A stretch of 64,000 nucleotides of DNA from Acidobacterium sp. (GTDB taxonomy: Bacteria > Acidobacteriota > Terriglobia > Terriglobales > Acidobacteriaceae): positions 124,001 to 188,000 of the forward strand of contig PMUI01000113.1 in the NCBI GenBank assembly GCA_003166955.1, written 5' to 3'. The notes under the pieces were generated by a model that saw nothing but the letters and a program-made list of their open reading frames with translations, had not been told where the DNA came from and did not search any database. The position numbers and the translations under genes were made by a program. This document shows positions 48,977-56,498 of this stretch, piece by piece. The first letter of the stretch is position 1, and every line of letters starts with the position of its first letter.

Positions 48977-51900
48977 ATGCCCGCGCCGCTGAAGCCGATC
49001 ATCTACATCGCCTTTGCCAACGACCGCGTCCACGCCGAAAAAGAGCTGGGCCTCGCGCAGGAGCGGGACAACATCACAGCGGCGATCAAGGGGAACCCCG
49101 AAACCACCGGCCAGCGCGACCGTCTCGCCGATCTCCTCAATAGCTGGGACCTGATCGCGACCGACAACCTCACGCCGCGATCCCTCACCGAGCCCTTCTA
49201 CACGAATCGCGTCGCAATCTTCCACTATGGCGGCCATGCGAATCCCGCGGCCCTGCTACTGGAGACCGAAGACGGCAAAAACATCGGCACCAGTTCGGAC
49301 AGCATCGTTCCTTTTCTCGAAGATCAGAGGAGCCTCAGGCTGATTTTCCTGAACGCGTGCAGCACAAAGCAGTGGGCCACCGCGCTCGCCGAGAGCACGA
49401 AAGGCGCGCTCTGCATCATCGCTACCTCCTGCCCGGTGCTCGATCCCATCGCGCTGCAGTTCTCCCACGACTTCTACAACAGCCTCGCCGCGGAAGCCAC
49501 CATTGAGGAGGCATTCCAGGCCGCCGTCGACGGCATGAACGTCAAGCTCACCGGCAGCGCGCGCGATTTCGGCGACCTCGAGCATGAAACCAACGGCCTT
49601 CCCTGGGCGCTTTATCCCGAAGGCCCCTGCGGCGCGAAAACCTGGAAACTTAGCAGCGCGTTCAGAAATCCGCTGCTTGGAATTCCCGCGCTCAGGCCTG
49701 ATGAGTACCCGATTCCGGACAGCCCGTACGTCTCCATCCGCGGCCACCAAAAAGAGGACGCGCAAATCTTTTTCGGCAGGAACGCGGAAATCCGCCAGAT
49801 CTACGACTGGGCCGTCCACGATACGCAATCGCCGATCATGCTGCTCTACGGGCAATCGGGCAGCGGCAAGTCTTCGCTGCTGCGCGCCGGCGTCTGGCCG
49901 CGCCTCGACGAGCCTCACGCCGACGGCCTCGAGCCTCGCGCCGACGTCGGCTACTTCCGCCGTGAAGAAAACCTGGTCGACGATCTCAACCTGGGCCTCT
50001 CGTACACCACGCACATCGCCGACCCTGCGCAGGCCGCCGACGCATGGCTGCGCAGAGAAAAGCCCATCGTCATCCTTCTGGACCAAATCGAGGAAGCCAT
50101 CACGCACCGCGTCCTCCGGAAAAACGCCAAAGACCCCAAAGCAGCGACGGACCCCAACACGGAGCTGGCAGAGTTTTTCGATCGCATCGTCGCAATCTTC
50201 ACCGACCCGCAAACCGGGCAGCCGCGCGTCCCCAAAACCAAAGCCCGCCTGATCCTCTCGTTTCGCAAGGAATTCCTCGCAGAAATTCGCAACCCCCTCG
50301 TCGATGGCATCCCGGCGCTTGTCCAGGATCTCTGGCTCGAGCGTCTCAGCGAGCAAAACATCGTCGATATCGTCGAGGGCCCAGTGCTGCGGGACGACCT
50401 GCGCGCAAAGTACAAAATCGCCCTCGAGCAAAAGAGCGATTCGGAAAAGGGCGGCTTTGCCCAATATCTCGCCGACCGCCTCTACGATCCTTATTCGCCC
50501 GTCGCCACCATCCTGCAGCTCGAACTGAATCGCCTCTGGGACTTCTGGCACTCCACCGATCCCGCCGACCAGCAGGCGCTCCAGGACCCTGCCGGTCTGC
50601 CCCAACACGAACTGCACGACTGCCGCGGCCAGAAAGATCCTCTGGGCCGCGATCAAAGCGACGCCGAGCTCTGCTATTCACGCCGGCTCTACGACAAAAT
50701 CTCTTCCGGCGATGCGCTCCGGCAGTTTCTCCTCGATCAAACCCAGACCTTCGATGACCCAGCGCTCAATAAAGGCATCGAGCTCGACCTGCTCTACGAG
50801 CACACCTCCAGTCTCGCAACTTCGCAGCGCCGCGGCCTGAGTGAGCTGAGGAAGAACTACGAAAACAGAATCTCCGCCGCAGACCTCGATCGCCTCCTCG
50901 CGCGCAACAAAGAGCTGCATCTGTTGGCCGATCTCTCCGCCGACCCCGACACACAAACCTCCGTCGGCGCGGAGCCCGTGCAGCCGGCCAGCCCCGGCCA
51001 GGAAACCGCAACGGTACTCGCGCACGACACGCTGGCGCCCGTCGTCCGCCGCGAATTCGATCTCTCTCATAACCCCGGCCAGATCGCGCGCCGCATCCTC
51101 GAAGATCGCGCTCGCGGCTGGACTGGCAATAAGAAAGGTGACTGCCTCGACGCCGCCGATCTCCGCCTCGTCCGCAGGGGCCGGCGTTACATGCGCGCCA
51201 CCACCCCCGACGAGAAGCGCCTGCTCCACGCCAGCCAATGGCGCCACCGCAGAAATATCGCCGCTCTCGTTTTCCTCCTCCTTGCGGTCGCGTACATCTT
51301 CGGCTACTACGCCTGGCACGAAGAAAAAATCGGAGATTCAGTCCGTCTCGCCAACGACGCCACTTACGATATCTTCGCCGACCGCTACGATCAGGCCGTC
51401 CTCCTCAGCGCCGCCGCCTGGCAACGGGCGCCCACGCCGGATGCGCGCGACGCCATCATCTCTGTCTTCGAAGCGCAGCCCGACGCCATCGCCTGGCTCT
51501 ATCCCGATCGCCCCGCGAATGGAACCGTCGCCTTTACTCCCGACAGCCAACAGCTCGCGATCACCGACGGCAACAGCGTCGAGCTCTGGGACGTCGCCAC
51601 AGGGAAGCGCCTGTGGGAAGCCTCCGCTGCTCTCTCCGGTCCGCATCCCGCGATCGATATCGCGGCCTTCAGTGCCGACGACAAATTGAACGGCAAGCTG
51701 CTGGCCCTTGCCAGCGCCGATGGACTGCAGCTGTGGCAGACCGCCGATCGCAAAGTCATCAGCGCGGCTCTTCCCAATGCGCCGATGCCCCTCCATGCGC
51801 TCGCGTTCAGTTCCACCGGTCCGGCTCTGCTCGCAGCTGAGGGAGGTTGCGGTCAGGTACAAGTTTGGACCCTCCCTGACCTGCACCCTCTCCGCCCCGT

Positions 51901-53587
51901 GCCCCAGCCCGCACCGGCCTGCTCCAACTCATCCATCGAAGGCCTTGCCTTCGATCCGGCAGATTCCAGCGTCCTTGCCCGATCCCAGATCAACGGACTC
52001 GTCTGGCTGGAAAACGCACAGACCGGCGCGCCCATCGCGCAGGTTCGCCCGTCCGACGACCAACGCAACGGCCCTGCTCCCAGTGGCACGCCGCCGCAAC
52101 AGCCCGCCGGCGTCCCACGCCTCGCTTTCAGCGCAAACGGCGCCCGCCTCGCCGCAGCCAACACTTCTGGAGCCATCGATCTGGTCGCCGTCGCATTCCA
52201 TCCCGCCGCCGACACTTCATATAAAGGAACCATCGATCCCGGCGGAGGGCTCGACACCTTCGCCCTTAATGCCGACGGCTCAAAGCTGGCCGTCGCAAGG
52301 AAGGACGGGTCCATCGGCGTCTTCGACACGGCTACGCATCTGCAGATAAAAGTCTTCGCCGACGCTCTTGGTTCCGTTGGACACACCACCGCGTTCTCGC
52401 CGGACTTCAAAATTGCCGCCGTGAAGACTCACCGAGCAAACGTCGCACTCCTCGATGTCTCTCGTTCCTGGAATCCGATTGCGTTGCTCGGTCCCTCAGG
52501 GGGGCCCGTGGTGGTGAAAGTCGCCTACAGCCCCAATGGCCATTGGGTCGCCACCGGAGGTTCCCTCGGCAGCGTCGCTCTCTGGAACACCGCTTCCAAA
52601 ACCGAAGCATACGGTTTCGTCGGCGGAGTGGATGATCGTCTCACCACCCCCGTAACCGCGCTCGCCTTCACTCCCGACAACAAAATCCCCGACAGTGAAA
52701 TCCTCCTCTTCTCGAAGGAAGGAAGCCTCGCCCTCCACCGCGTTGACATCGCCCACGCTCACTCATTCGATAATCGATCCCTGCTTCCGGACCTGACCGC
52801 CGCGCCTGACAAGGGCGAGACGAGTATCGAAGCCGCCGCCGTCGCTCCCGATGGTCAGGTCTTCACCCTCAGCGACCAGGGAACGATTCGCATCTGGACT
52901 TCCGCTGCTCAGACGACTCCGCCCACCGTGATTCGCGGAGTTGCCGGTGCTCAAAAGCCGTCCGCCCTCGCCATCAGTCCCGATGGCAAATTCCTCGCCG
53001 TTCCGGGCCCGCAGGGCAACGGCATCGTCGTGCTCGATGCGCACACCCATCAGGTCTTCCGACGCTTCGCCGCCGATAACCTCTCGGCCCAGGCCATTGC
53101 CTTCAGCCGACCAGCGCAGAACGCACCTCCGCTCCTCGCCGCCGGCGGTCCCGGAGGCCTTTATGTCTGGAACGTCACCACCGGTGAACAAATTTCCAAT
53201 GCGGAGCAGACCCCCGCCAGCCTCGCCTTCAGTCCCGATGGCAGTCTGCTTCTCCTCGGTCTCGCGGACGGGACCCTCGGCCTGTGGGACGCTGTCTCGG
53301 CCAAGTTACCAGGGCAGCCTCTGCGCTACCCGTGGCCCGGCCCTCCACCGGCTCCCGGGGGAGTAGCCTTCAGCCCGGACGGCATGCATCTCGTCGCGGG
53401 CCTCCCAGGCACAGGATTCAGCGTGTGGGATTGGGATCTCGACCTCGACACCTGGCCAGCACGCGCCTGCGCCATCGCCAACCGTCCCCTGACCAGAGCA
53501 GAGTGGAACAAGCTGATGGAGCCCTTCACGCCTTTTCAGGATCCCTGCGCGAATCTGACCCCGCGCGCAGCCCCAGCCGCGAAGTAA
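48977..53587 (+). CDS. CHAT protease-STAND NTPase-WD40 signalling protein
   Basis: The 1536-residue protein combines an N-terminal CHAT domain (caspase-like; His in FHYGGHANP at about 83-87 and Cys128 in FLNACSTKQ), an nSTAND1-like NTPase (SIRGHQKEDAQIFFGRNAEI, Walker A GQSGSGKS at 292-299, Walker B VILLDQIEE near 366-374), a membrane helix (NIAALVFLLLAVAYIFGYYA, about 762-781), and a WD40-like propeller (about 815-1510, repeats such as LAFSPDGSLLLLGLADGTL). STAND proteins usually oligomerise on ligand binding and activate an attached effector, here a protease. The helix between NTPase and propeller suggests a membrane-anchored, outward-facing sensor. Substrate and trigger are unknown. Confidence 0.9.
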   Translation: MPAPLKPIIYIAFANDRVHAEKELGLAQERDNITAAIKGNPETTGQRDRLADLLNSWDLIATDNLTPRSLTEPFYTNRVAIFHYGGHANPAALLLETEDGKNIGTSSDSIVPFLEDQRSLRLIFLNACSTKQWATALAESTKGALCIIATSCPVLDPIALQFSHDFYNSLAAEATIEEAFQAAVDGMNVKLTGSARDFGDLEHETNGLPWALYPEGPCGAKTWKLSSAFRNPLLGIPALRPDEYPIPDSPYVSIRGHQKEDAQIFFGRNAEIRQIYDWAVHDTQSPIMLLYGQSGSGKSSLLRAGVWPRLDEPHADGLEPRADVGYFRREENLVDDLNLGLSYTTHIADPAQAADAWLRREKPIVILLDQIEEAITHRVLRKNAKDPKAATDPNTELAEFFDRIVAIFTDPQTGQPRVPKTKARLILSFRKEFLAEIRNPLVDGIPALVQDLWLERLSEQNIVDIVEGPVLRDDLRAKYKIALEQKSDSEKGGFAQYLADRLYDPYSPVATILQLELNRLWDFWHSTDPADQQALQDPAGLPQHELHDCRGQKDPLGRDQSDAELCYSRRLYDKISSGDALRQFLLDQTQTFDDPALNKGIELDLLYEHTSSLATSQRRGLSELRKNYENRISAADLDRLLARNKELHLLADLSADPDTQTSVGAEPVQPASPGQETATVLAHDTLAPVVRREFDLSHNPGQIARRILEDRARGWTGNKKGDCLDAADLRLVRRGRRYMRATTPDEKRLLHASQWRHRRNIAALVFLLLAVAYIFGYYAWHEEKIGDSVRLANDATYDIFADRYDQAVLLSAAAWQRAPTPDARDAIISVFEAQPDAIAWLYPDRPANGTVAFTPDSQQLAITDGNSVELWDVATGKRLWEASAALSGPHPAIDIAAFSADDKLNGKLLALASADGLQLWQTADRKVISAALPNAPMPLHALAFSSTGPALLAAEGGCGQVQVWTLPDLHPLRPVPQPAPACSNSSIEGLAFDPADSSVLARSQINGLVWLENAQTGAPIAQVRPSDDQRNGPAPSGTPPQQPAGVPRLAFSANGARLAAANTSGAIDLVAVAFHPAADTSYKGTIDPGGGLDTFALNADGSKLAVARKDGSIGVFDTATHLQIKVFADALGSVGHTTAFSPDFKIAAVKTHRANVALLDVSRSWNPIALLGPSGGPVVVKVAYSPNGHWVATGGSLGSVALWNTASKTEAYGFVGGVDDRLTTPVTALAFTPDNKIPDSEILLFSKEGSLALHRVDIAHAHSFDNRSLLPDLTAAPDKGETSIEAAAVAPDGQVFTLSDQGTIRIWTSAAQTTPPTVIRGVAGAQKPSALAISPDGKFLAVPGPQGNGIVVLDAHTHQVFRRFAADNLSAQAIAFSRPAQNAPPLLAAGGPGGLYVWNVTTGEQISNAEQTPASLAFSPDGSLLLLGLADGTLGLWDAVSAKLPGQPLRYPWPGPPPAPGGVAFSPDGMHLVAGLPGTGFSVWDWDLDLDTWPARACAIANRPLTRAEWNKLMEPFTPFQDPCANLTPRAAPAAK

Positions 53588-55449: not shown

Positions 55450-55525
55450 TGGAGCACCGGGCGGGAATTGAACCCGCGAATACTGGTTTTGCAGACCAGC
55501 GCGTTAGCCACTTCGCCACCGGTGC
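55450..55525 (-). tRNA. tRNA-Cys (anticodon GCA), CCA encoded
   Basis: The 76-nt sequence folds with acceptor stem GCACCGG/CCGGTGC, discriminator U73, encoded CCA, a D-arm closed by GCG/CGC, anticodon stem CTGGT/ACCAG with loop CTGCAAA, and T-arm GCGGG-TTCAATT-CCCGC. Anticodon GCA and U73 identify cysteine. It lies 74 bp downstream of the peroxiredoxin gene on the same strand. Confidence 0.96.
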
Positions 55526-55561
55526 TCTTCGTCCGCCGCGCCCCATCGACGCGTCGGGTTC

Positions 55562-55592
55562 AAATCCAAAAGCCCGGCCTCTGACCGCCGGG
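55562..55592 (-). terminator. Weak possible terminator between peroxiredoxin and tRNA-Cys
   Basis: On the minus strand a 6-bp GC stem (55587-55592 with 55573-55578, loop 8 nt) is followed by CTTTTGGATTT. It could terminate or only partly terminate transcription from the peroxiredoxin gene before the tRNA. Confidence 0.4.
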
Positions 55593-55599
55593 TCGCCGC

Positions 55600-56256
55600 T
55601 TACTGCGGCTGCGCTGTCGTGCGCAGATACGGCTTTACCGTCTTGTAACCCGGGAAGATCCTATCTGCCTCTTCATTCGTCACGGCGCCCGTGATGATGA
55701 CATCCTCGCCCTGCTTCCAGTTCGCGGGCGTCGCCACCTTGTGCTTCGCCGTCAGCTGGATCGAGTCGAGCACGCGCAGAATCTCATCGAAGTTGCGCCC
55801 CGTCGTCATCGGATACGCCAGCGTCAGCTTGATCCGCTTGTCCGGCCCGATCACGAACACCGTCCGCACCGGGGCATTCTGGGCCGGCGTGCGGCCGTCC
55901 GACGTCTCGCCCGCGTCCGCCGCCAGCATGTCATAGAGCTTCGCGATCTTCAATTCCGGGTCGCCGATCAGCGGATACTTTACGTCGTAGCCGCCAACCT
56001 CCTTGATGTCCGCCGCCCACTTATCGTGGTTCGTCACCGGATCGACGCTCAGGCCAATCACCTTCGCTCCGCGCTGGGCGAACTGGCTCTCGAGGCTGGC
56101 GACCGCGCCCAGCTCCGTCGTGCACACCGGTGTAAAGTCCTTGGGGTGCGAAAACAGCACAGCCCAGTTATCGCCGATCCACTCGTGAAAGCGGATCACC
56201 CCGTGGGTCGTCTCGGCGGTGAAATCGGGAGCAATATCGTTGATGCGCAGTGTCAT
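55600..56256 (-). CDS. 1-Cys-type peroxiredoxin (Prx6 group)
   Basis: The 218-residue protein reduces H2O2 and organic peroxides through the peroxidatic Cys45 in the motif HPKDFTPVCTTELG. The C-terminal extension (LTLAYPMTTGRNFDEILRVLDS through ITGAVTNEEADRIFPGYK) is that of the Prx6/1-Cys subgroup. ATG 56256 has GGAGGAAAG just upstream. The 5' region between a promoter-like element (56469-56498) and this start contains a poly-cysteine leader ORF and a terminator hairpin, so expression is probably controlled by attenuation. tRNA-Cys lies 74 bp downstream. Confidence 0.94.
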   Translation of the reverse strand: MTLRINDIAPDFTAETTHGVIRFHEWIGDNWAVLFSHPKDFTPVCTTELGAVASLESQFAQRGAKVIGLSVDPVTNHDKWAADIKEVGGYDVKYPLIGDPELKIAKLYDMLAADAGETSDGRTPAQNAPVRTVFVIGPDKRIKLTLAYPMTTGRNFDEILRVLDSIQLTAKHKVATPANWKQGEDVIITGAVTNEEADRIFPGYKTVKPYLRTTAQPQ

Positions 56257-56313
56257 GGCCTTTCCTCCTGGGACTTCCTGTTTTCCGTGTGAGGGGCAAA
56301 ATCAAAACCCGGG

Positions 56314-56354
56314 CAAAATCAAAACCCACCCGGCCATCTGGCAGCGGGTGGGTT
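56314..56354 (-). terminator. Attenuator-type terminator hairpin before the peroxiredoxin gene
   Basis: On the minus strand aacccacccg (56354-56345) pairs perfectly over 10 bp with cgggtgggtt (56332-56323), loop 12 nt, followed by a U-rich tail (TTGATTTTG). It lies 30 nt past the stop of the poly-Cys leader and 58 nt before the peroxiredoxin start. Seven bases of its 5' arm (56350-56344, CACCCGC) are also complementary to GCGGGTG at 56399-56393 inside the leader, giving a mutually exclusive alternative structure. It could also serve as a plain terminator for the upstream secreted-protein gene. Confidence 0.7.
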
Positions 56355-56383
56355 CTGAGCGATTCTGAAACTTTTTGCTTCTC

Positions 56384-56458
56384 TCAGACACACACCCGCA
56401 TGGTGCAGCCGCAACAGCAGCAGCACATACACATGCAGGTTGGAGAGAAAGCATTCAT
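56384..56458 (-). CDS. Poly-cysteine leader peptide (24 aa), probable attenuator uORF
   Basis: ATG 56458 to TGA 56384-56386 encodes 24 residues starting MNAFSPT; residues 8-18 read CMCMCCCCCGC and Cys recurs at 23. Nine of 24 codons are Cys, five of them consecutive, and three further residues are Met, so translation would be very sensitive to charged tRNA-Cys. No Shine-Dalgarno is seen; the promoter-like element places the transcript start within a few bases of the ATG, so the mRNA may be leaderless. The peptide itself probably has no function beyond ribosome stalling, though metal binding cannot be excluded. Confidence 0.65.
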   Translation of the reverse strand: MNAFSPTCMCMCCCCCGCTMRVCV

Positions 56459-56468
56459 TACTAAGTAC

Positions 56469-56498
56469 AGCCTAGGGCCTGGCGCGCGCGGCTGTCAA
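56469..56498 (-). promoter_or_regulatory. Sigma-70-like promoter for leader/peroxiredoxin transcript
   Basis: On the minus strand TTGACA (56498-56493, perfect -35) is followed after 18 nt by TAGGCT (56474-56469), a moderate -10. Initiation about 7 nt further would fall near 56462, 4 nt before the leader ATG. Confidence 0.55.

Follow-up and report, generated by a model that had tools for sequence, protein, structure and literature searches.

Ribosome-dependent attenuators are textbook control of amino acid biosynthesis and tRNA synthetases. The trp attenuator of Escherichia coli has a four-segment layout, and in attenuators the choice between termination and readthrough falls before the terminator's 3' arm has been transcribed. 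Among described systems, the closest that we found appears to be the uORFC-8-2 motif of the Rhodobacterales, which lies upstream of cysS and for which readthrough was proposed when ribosomes stall at low levels of Cys-tRNA-Cys (PMC8632094). Cys-run leader open reading frames (ORFs) also precede the cys and cbs operons of Actinobacteria, where, in the available part of the account, the authors found no terminator hairpin (PMC1262725), and mycobacteria carry poly-Cys leaderless small ORFs (sORFs; Canestrari et al. 2020, as cited in PMC9094748 and PMC13236596). Here we analyzed a 64,000-nt stretch of DNA from Acidobacterium sp. (GenBank assembly GCA_003166955.1, contig PMUI01000113.1, positions 124,001 to 188,000), called the window below. 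On its minus strand, a short ORF with a run of Cys codons and a predicted terminator precede a peroxiredoxin gene and a tRNA-Cys gene. This element is very probably a ribosome-mediated transcription attenuator of the trp type that reads Cys codons and controls a peroxiredoxin-tRNA-Cys operon.

The acidobacterial element resembles each of these systems and differs from each. Like uORFC-8-2, it has a short upstream ORF (uORF), tandem Cys codons and an intrinsic terminator, but uORFC-8-2 is an alphaproteobacterial motif with two tandem Cys codons and a cysteinyl-tRNA synthetase as target (PMC8632094), whereas the acidobacterial runs are mostly 3 to 8 Cys codons long, a peroxiredoxin and a tRNA-Cys gene are the putative targets, and the element does not lie upstream of cysS. 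With the mycobacterial sORFs it would share a short poly-Cys ORF close to or at the 5' end of the transcript and, as cited for them, cysteine-responsive attenuation downstream; there, however, cysteine biosynthetic genes are under translation attenuation, while here a predicted terminator stands before a peroxiredoxin-tRNA operon. The actinobacterial leaders likewise place a Cys codon run in a short ORF ahead of a regulated operon, but the terminator and alternative pairing set the acidobacterial element apart (PMC1262725). The PBC-28-3 motif is a cis element ahead of AhpC-type peroxiredoxin genes; it differs in its long stem beside the start codon, for which a translational role was suggested, and the available description mentions no uORF (PMC8632094). 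With E. coli trp, the element shares the four-segment layout and, by the same computation, a difference of the same kind between stalled ribosomes and ribosomes at the stop codon, but trp uses Trp codons, controls a biosynthetic operon and has no tRNA gene as target. A preliminary description of the window had stated that no Cys attenuator on a peroxiredoxin was known. Indeed, our literature search, with most subscription papers outside it, found none described on a peroxiredoxin or a tRNA gene; as a kind, however, such attenuators are known already, and what is new here is the targets.

The element and the genes behind it consist of the following parts:

56493-56498, minus strand: TTGACA, a -35-like hexamer, called from the sequence and from comparison across leaders.
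56469-56474, minus strand: TAGGCT, a -10-like hexamer 10 nt upstream of the leader ATG, giving a near-leaderless transcript if used.
56384-56458, minus strand: leader ORF of 24 codons, MNAFSPTCMCMCCCCCGCTMRVCV, with stop codon TGA, called from sequence and conservation.
56432-56440, minus strand: segment 1 (ACCTGCATG), which with its partner CATGCGGGT forms a 1:2 hairpin enclosing the Cys run in the minimum-energy fold.
56411-56425, minus strand: run of five Cys codons, the putative regulatory codons, called from the sequence and the genus loci.
56393-56399, minus strand: segment 2 (GCGGGTG), 5' side of the antiterminator, called from the sequence and a sliding control.
56383-56387, minus strand: CTGAG across the stop codon, a possible extension of the antiterminator through CTCAG at 56355-56359, called from sequence and alignment.
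56344-56350, minus strand: segment 3 (CACCCGC), common to terminator and antiterminator, called from the sequence.
56315-56354, minus strand: predicted intrinsic terminator with a 10-bp stem, a 12-nt loop and a U-rich tail, called from the sequence.
55600-56256, minus strand: 1-Cys peroxiredoxin of the Prx6 type, 218 aa, with its single Cys in PVCTTE (Pfam AhpC-TSA and 1-cysPrx_C).
55573-55592, minus strand: weak terminator-like hairpin, CCCGGC..GCCGGG with CTTTTGGA, between the peroxiredoxin and the tRNA, from a terminator scan.
55450-55525, minus strand: tRNA-Cys (gca), a second isogene and probably the last gene of the operon, called from the tRNA/Rfam match and conserved gene order.

All of the coordinates given in the preliminary description, from the hexamers, the ORF, the terminator and the complementarity to the peroxiredoxin and a tRNA-Cys gene 74 bp past its stop codon, agree with the sequence. 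The two hexamers are 18 nt apart, and the leader starts at 56458. Nine of its 24 codons are Cys, five of them consecutive, and three internal codons are Met. Segment 2 (56399-56393) is the perfect complement of segment 3 (56350-56344). The terminator reads AACCCACCCG-CTGCCAGATGGC-CGGGTGGGTT-TTGATTTT from 56354 to 56315, the hairpin itself ending at 56323. Its U-rich tail seems to be part of a tandem repeat at 56294-56333 (GGGTTTTGATTTTGCCC twice), which creates a second terminator-like hairpin that reuses the 3' arm of the first. The region 56250-56470 folds with z = -4.9 relative to shuffled sequences. ORFs of 15-40 aa with at least five consecutive Cys codons occur once in the window, against a mean of 0 in 60 dinucleotide-preserving shuffles. 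At the gathering score, the tRNA was the sole Rfam match in the window; no T-box, riboswitch or other family was detected.

The generic promoter scan listed no sigma-70-like site, TAGGCT matching TATAAT in only 3 of 6 positions, so the promoter call rests on the comparison between leaders. In 29 of 51 compiled leaders the best-scoring -35-like hexamer starts with TTGAC, and in the 44 leaders whose start codon was located, the -10-like hexamer lies a median of 8 nt ahead of it (at most 10 nt in 35). If this promoter is used, the transcript would be nearly leaderless, like those of the mycobacterial poly-Cys sORFs. In the hexamer scan most leaders of genus g23 had poor promoter hexamers, and many leaders of genus g9 have, by eye, an AAGGA-like site ahead of the ATG.

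The analysis shows which parts are present and conserved, how the genes are ordered and, by computation, that the pairing depends on stalling; the transcription start, ribosome stalling, readthrough and co-transcription of the tRNA are inferred. RNA polymerase would start just upstream of the leader ORF with a ribosome trailing behind it. With ample Cys-tRNA-Cys, the ribosome would reach the stop codon and cover segment 2, allowing the terminator (3:4) to form and stop transcription. During a shortage of charged tRNA-Cys, the ribosome would stall in the Cys run, and segment 2 could pair with segment 3 before segment 4 exists. The antiterminated polymerase would then continue into the peroxiredoxin and the second tRNA-Cys gene. 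The likely use is that a cell low in cysteine or charged tRNA-Cys would make a peroxidase with a low demand for cysteine per chain and replenish its tRNA-Cys.

The arrangement is conserved. Peroxiredoxin homologues were sought in 41 genomes, and the orientation of each locus was set by tblastn. Within the genus, 12 of 12 loci, the window's included, have an ORF with 4 to 8 consecutive Cys codons and a terminator ahead of the peroxiredoxin, and tRNA-Cys(gca) behind it, 19 to 91 nt past the stop codon. A trp-type attenuator has a leader ORF enriched in one codon, and a conserved one was found here, with a predicted intrinsic terminator between it and the first gene. A covariance model built from 25 leaders and searched in 396 genomes of the phylum gave 28 matches at E <=5e-8, all in the window's own family; two of these (L071, L095) are model-building loci, and some are close relatives of each other. 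Of these strong matches, 26 precede a peroxiredoxin, while L094 and L098 precede a tRNA-Cys with no peroxiredoxin between, the leader stop lying 140 and 272 nt from the tRNA, respectively. The downstream tRNA is tRNA-Cys at 26 of the 28, which ties the element to its amino acid, and tRNA-Sec at two (L081 and L095, in the latter about 640 nt past the peroxiredoxin). For 24 strong matches the tRNA-Cys was inside the fetched stretch; L212 and L213 have a prxA-prxB pair followed by tRNA-Cys. The model has false negatives, as L116, L121 and L124 carry leader, terminator, peroxiredoxin and tRNA-Cys. At E 0.1 the model matched 221 of the 396 genomes, a tally that we did not use; two of the weaker matches were inspected, and both L099 (E 6e-7) and L100 (E 8e-6) lack a Cys run.

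In a second family, a short Cys ORF and a terminator were present at 9 of 9 fetched peroxiredoxin loci, L021 having only two consecutive Cys codons. Four genomes of this family, viewed at 10-14 kb, had no tRNA in the stretch, and a fifth had only tRNA-Leu. Among the best 80 named peroxiredoxin loci, leader and terminator were found in 4 of 17 with titles naming Acidobacteria (L131, L133, L143 and L134, the last being Terriglobus albidus DSM 26559) and in 0 of 63 others, which include one unclassified bacterium. Peroxiredoxin relatives without a leader are L016, L018, L019, L020 and L027. Leader plus terminator are also missing at five peroxiredoxin genes of the family that lack a 3' tRNA (L123, L125, L128, L129, L130); L125 and L130 do carry a short ORF containing Cys. 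As judged from these comparisons, the leader-terminator arrangement is clearly not due to chance.

In other genera of the family, tRNA-Sec replaces tRNA-Cys 3' of the peroxiredoxin on the same strand, with a leader in L015, L017 and L081 and none in L018 and L027; in L017 and L027 the tRNA-Sec is several hundred nt away. L222 has the order peroxiredoxin, tRNA-Cys, tRNA-Sec. A selenocysteine reading of the leader stop was considered and dropped because the tRNA-Sec-linked leaders end in TAG (L015, L017, L081) or TAA (L143).

The alternative pairing was assessed on the set of 51 leaders, the terminator finder accepting only hairpins with four or more T close to the end of the stem; L132, which lacks a terminator of this kind, and the near-duplicates L133, L124 and L074 had been dropped. 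As the attenuator decision precedes the 3' arm, the RNA was folded only up to the loop, with the ribosome footprint masked. In the E. coli trpL control, the probability that the 5' arm pairs with the leader was 0.62 with a stalled ribosome and 0.03 with a ribosome at the stop codon; for the window the values were 0.87 and 0.45. The stalled value exceeded the stop value by more than 0.2 in 41 of the 51 leaders, and the mean difference was 0.431, compared to 0.137 (sd 0.033) in 40 shuffle sets. Since the 51 loci still hold close relatives, the test was repeated with 17 representatives drawn from 16 groups (g27 supplying two), with a similar outcome (0.418 vs 0.133, sd 0.053; largest of 100 shuffle sets 0.287). 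Loci that passed numbered 12 of 12 in genus g1, 15 of 17 in g23, 10 of 13 in g9 (mean 0.429 vs 0.171, sd 0.070, largest shuffle 0.319) and 5 of 9 in the second family (mean 0.304 vs a largest shuffle mean of 0.285). In each of four clades tested separately, the mean stall-dependent pairing was above all 100 shuffle sets. Co-transcriptional folding with a masked ribosome thus behaves like that of E. coli trpL and exceeds that of shuffled sequences. These results, together with the conserved parts, support the trp-type attenuator that the preliminary description had proposed. It had named as the contrary finding homologous loci from which the Cys run and the alternative pairing are both missing; this is not what the comparison gave, all 12 genus loci having a run of at least four Cys codons, a terminator and a tRNA-Cys, and the mean pairing being above shuffles in the four clades.

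In direct pairing energy, own arms are favoured over swapped ones (z -2.5, 156 of 20000 permutations as good), and an upstream control segment showed no such excess. In L010, the leader has GCAGGTG and the arm CACCTGC, so that complementarity is restored. With the CTGAG/CTCAG extension, 93.8% of the antiterminator cells are paired, compared to at most 53.5% when the segments are slid, a control that leans in favour of the antiterminator because the structure was read from these same sequences. For the 1:2 hairpin, 82% of cells are paired in alignment A1.

Several results weigh against the attenuator or against parts of it. Ten of the 51 leaders fail the stall-minus-stop test, one of them reversed; in g9, three of 13 fail, one of them reversed, and the five passing loci of the second family are matched by shuffles, which reach 6. 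The energy advantage of own arms is modest, with 18 of 51 loci individually significant at p 0.05. Covariation of the two stems, which the preliminary description had named as a check, gave no significant signal: 31 of the 51 loci have both the GGGTG and the CACCC motif, and the base beside the motifs pairs in 19 of them (P 0.063); in the genus alignment the antiterminator shows a single double change, a result that 39 of 500 shuffles match or exceed; and in the same alignment the 1:2 hairpin shows no covariation beyond chance. Folding of the full leader at equilibrium does not back a stall-only antiterminator either. The mean terminator probability was 0.92 for free RNA, 0.82 with the ribosome at the first Cys codon and 0.92 with it at the stop codon, and for the window 0.94 (stalled) vs 0.96. 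As a test, equilibrium folding with a masked ribosome discriminated poorly and was set aside; the stop value was higher than the first-Cys value by more than 0.05 in 14 of 51 leaders and lower in 6. Since the terminator wins at equilibrium even with a stalled ribosome, switching must be kinetic. The two structures, described earlier as excluding each other, therefore compete during transcription, but at equilibrium the terminator dominates. Finally, some peroxiredoxin loci linked to tRNA-Sec (L018, L027) have no leader, and the window's own weak hairpin with its CTTTTGGA tail sits before the tRNA.

That the tRNA itself may be a target is clearest from genus g9 (40 genomes, centre G208), which was queried with the leader-tRNA region of L094. 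Some match was found in 39 of the 40 genomes, many just to the housekeeping tRNA or a short repeat. Of 25 fetched loci, 11 have a Cys-rich leader and a terminator directly ahead of tRNA-Cys with no peroxiredoxin between (L225-L230, L234, L236, L240, L244, L247), the leader stop lying 90 to 176 nt from the tRNA. Two of these leaders (L230, L236) have two runs of two Cys codons and the rest at least three consecutive ones. Weaker cases are L237, with two consecutive Cys codons, and L232, whose leader ends 328 nt upstream; L235 keeps the order leader-prxB-tRNA-Cys. In the remaining fetched loci no leader of this kind stands close to the tRNA, the contig breaks off, or the tRNA is the housekeeping one. 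G208 has no peroxiredoxin relative at E 1e-30. A divergent gene that we take by eye to be PhzF-like lies upstream of the leader in several genera (L212, L213, L219, L220, L223, L224), and because this neighbour is common to the peroxiredoxin loci and to the peroxiredoxin-less G208 locus, the gene order suggests that the peroxiredoxin was lost from an orthologous locus in G208. L098 (G387) is a degenerate copy that lacks the peroxiredoxin and has a leader with one Cys codon and an Arg run, terminator and tRNA-Cys being kept. By strict criteria a terminator 3' of the tRNA was absent in 12 of 13 g9 loci, several of which have, by eye, a GC-rich hairpin that contains a bulge and ends in a short U tail. 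In L229, L237, L244 and L247 a protein-coding region appears to start within about 160 nt after the tRNA, which therefore need not be the last gene there.

The feedback loop through tRNA-Cys suggested in the preliminary description is strengthened by these g9 loci because the leader directly precedes the tRNA gene. We consider it somewhat probable that transcription of a bacterial tRNA gene is set by attenuation at the codons that the tRNA itself reads: a shortage of charged tRNA-Cys would raise expression of a dedicated second tRNA-Cys gene, adjacent to the leader in one genus and accompanied by a 1-Cys peroxiredoxin elsewhere, in an autoregulatory loop of tRNA supply under cysteine or sulfur stress. 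Such self-control is clearest outside the window, yet it is the natural reading of the window's tRNA-Cys.

An attenuator could also be real and act on the peroxiredoxin alone, the tRNA-Cys having its own promoter and being a mere neighbour. The second-family loci, which carry leader and peroxiredoxin without a tRNA, and the weak hairpin ahead of the window's tRNA would fit this. However, tRNA-Cys or tRNA-Sec lies downstream of all 28 strong family matches, the gap narrows to 19 nt in L014, and g9 retains the leader directly before tRNA-Cys where it has no peroxiredoxin, so that we regard a peroxiredoxin-only target as unlikely. An ORF that stands by chance ahead of an ordinary terminator has next to no probability. 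GC-rich genomes do hold TGC runs in other frames, and this genome has (TGY)5 at 17 sites, some overlapping, but the arrangement is conserved across genera and two families, and no such Cys-run ORF arose in the 60 shuffled windows; the conservation already refutes chance. Of the 17 sites, L264 and L265 among them, only the window's lies in a short ORF behind which a terminator with a perfect stem and a U tail was found. A wider regulon in this genome was rejected on the same result, in a search that covered (TGY)5 and no shorter runs.

Two other mechanisms would keep the leader but change what it senses or does. Nascent chains rich in Cys might undergo oxidation or metal binding, and peroxiredoxin is a redox enzyme, so the poly-Cys peptide might sense metal, thiol or redox state and arrest the ribosome independently of tRNA charging. 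This is improbable, as the peptides from likely starts are mostly shorter than 30 residues and have their Cys run about halfway along, and a run so placed in so short a peptide should remain in the ribosome tunnel; the number of Cys residues and their flanks also vary widely, and the placement of the run relative to segment 2 favours reading of codons. The hairpin might instead act on translation of the peroxiredoxin, in the manner cited for the cysteine biosynthetic genes of M. smegmatis (PMC13236596). The hairpins that follow the compiled leaders have T-rich tails, a feature that the finder demanded, and in g9 the leader is followed by a tRNA gene, on which a purely translational mechanism cannot act because its product is untranslated, yet four g9 loci seem to have a coding start after the tRNA; we give control of translation a very small chance. 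Transcription attenuation at Cys codons remains our preferred explanation.

The peroxiredoxin has the 1-cysPrx_C domain and the peroxidatic motif of Prx6-type enzymes, and Prx6 structures are among its best structural matches. PVCTTE is kept in 42 of 42 orthologues with more than 60% identity, which contain one Cys (20 proteins), two (21) or three (1). The window's tRNA-Cys is a second isogene because another tRNA-Cys, clearly different in sequence, lies beside tRNA-Gly on another contig of the genome; the idea that it is the sole tRNA-Cys was thereby rejected. A housekeeping-type tRNA-Cys is present at full length in 11 of 12 genomes of the genus and in 19 of 20 genomes searched from the rest of the family. 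Over 43 loci, near-duplicates included, the gap between peroxiredoxin and tRNA is 19-178 nt (median 56), and 42 of them have no U-tailed terminator in it, the window with its weak CTTTTGGA tail being the single exception. Seven of the 43 (L012, L013, L014, L086, L090, L124, L133) have a U-tailed terminator 3' of the tRNA. In L004-L008 a GC-rich hairpin in the spacer, CCGCCGCG..CGCGGCGG, without a U tail often adjoins the tRNA-Cys and is possibly a processing site. L002 (G000:C4:36311-36350) is a remnant that matches 40 bp of the window's tRNA-Cys exactly but is not called as a tRNA by ARAGORN; it may be a scar left behind by an element that integrates in tRNA-Cys. L033 (G000:C97:1-4000) is a dense array of 27 tRNAs at a contig end, with many anticodons duplicated elsewhere in the genome and no tRNA-Cys. 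Elsewhere in the window, 48977-53587 on the plus strand encodes a 1536-aa protein that by eye seems to combine a caspase/CHAT-like N-terminal part with a P-loop NTPase and WD40 repeats.

In sulfur-starved Pseudomonas aeruginosa, lsfA, encoding the 1-Cys peroxiredoxin LsfA, is up over 45-fold and is among the most induced antioxidant genes, and why sulfur starvation induces antioxidants is posed there as an open question (PMC12581299). Sulfur starvation is the only tie of the peroxiredoxin to cysteine. Induction of a peroxidase with one or two Cys residues by a lack of charged tRNA-Cys would fit the induction of LsfA, and the peroxiredoxin link may bear on that question. A genome-wide screen of Acidobacteria predicted attenuators, almost none of them, in the available part of the report, with an associated function (PMC2965389). 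If our reading is true, this element would be a worked case of attenuation in the Acidobacteria, and an attenuator placed before the gene of a tRNA for the very amino acid that it reads would provide direct feedback on tRNA supply.

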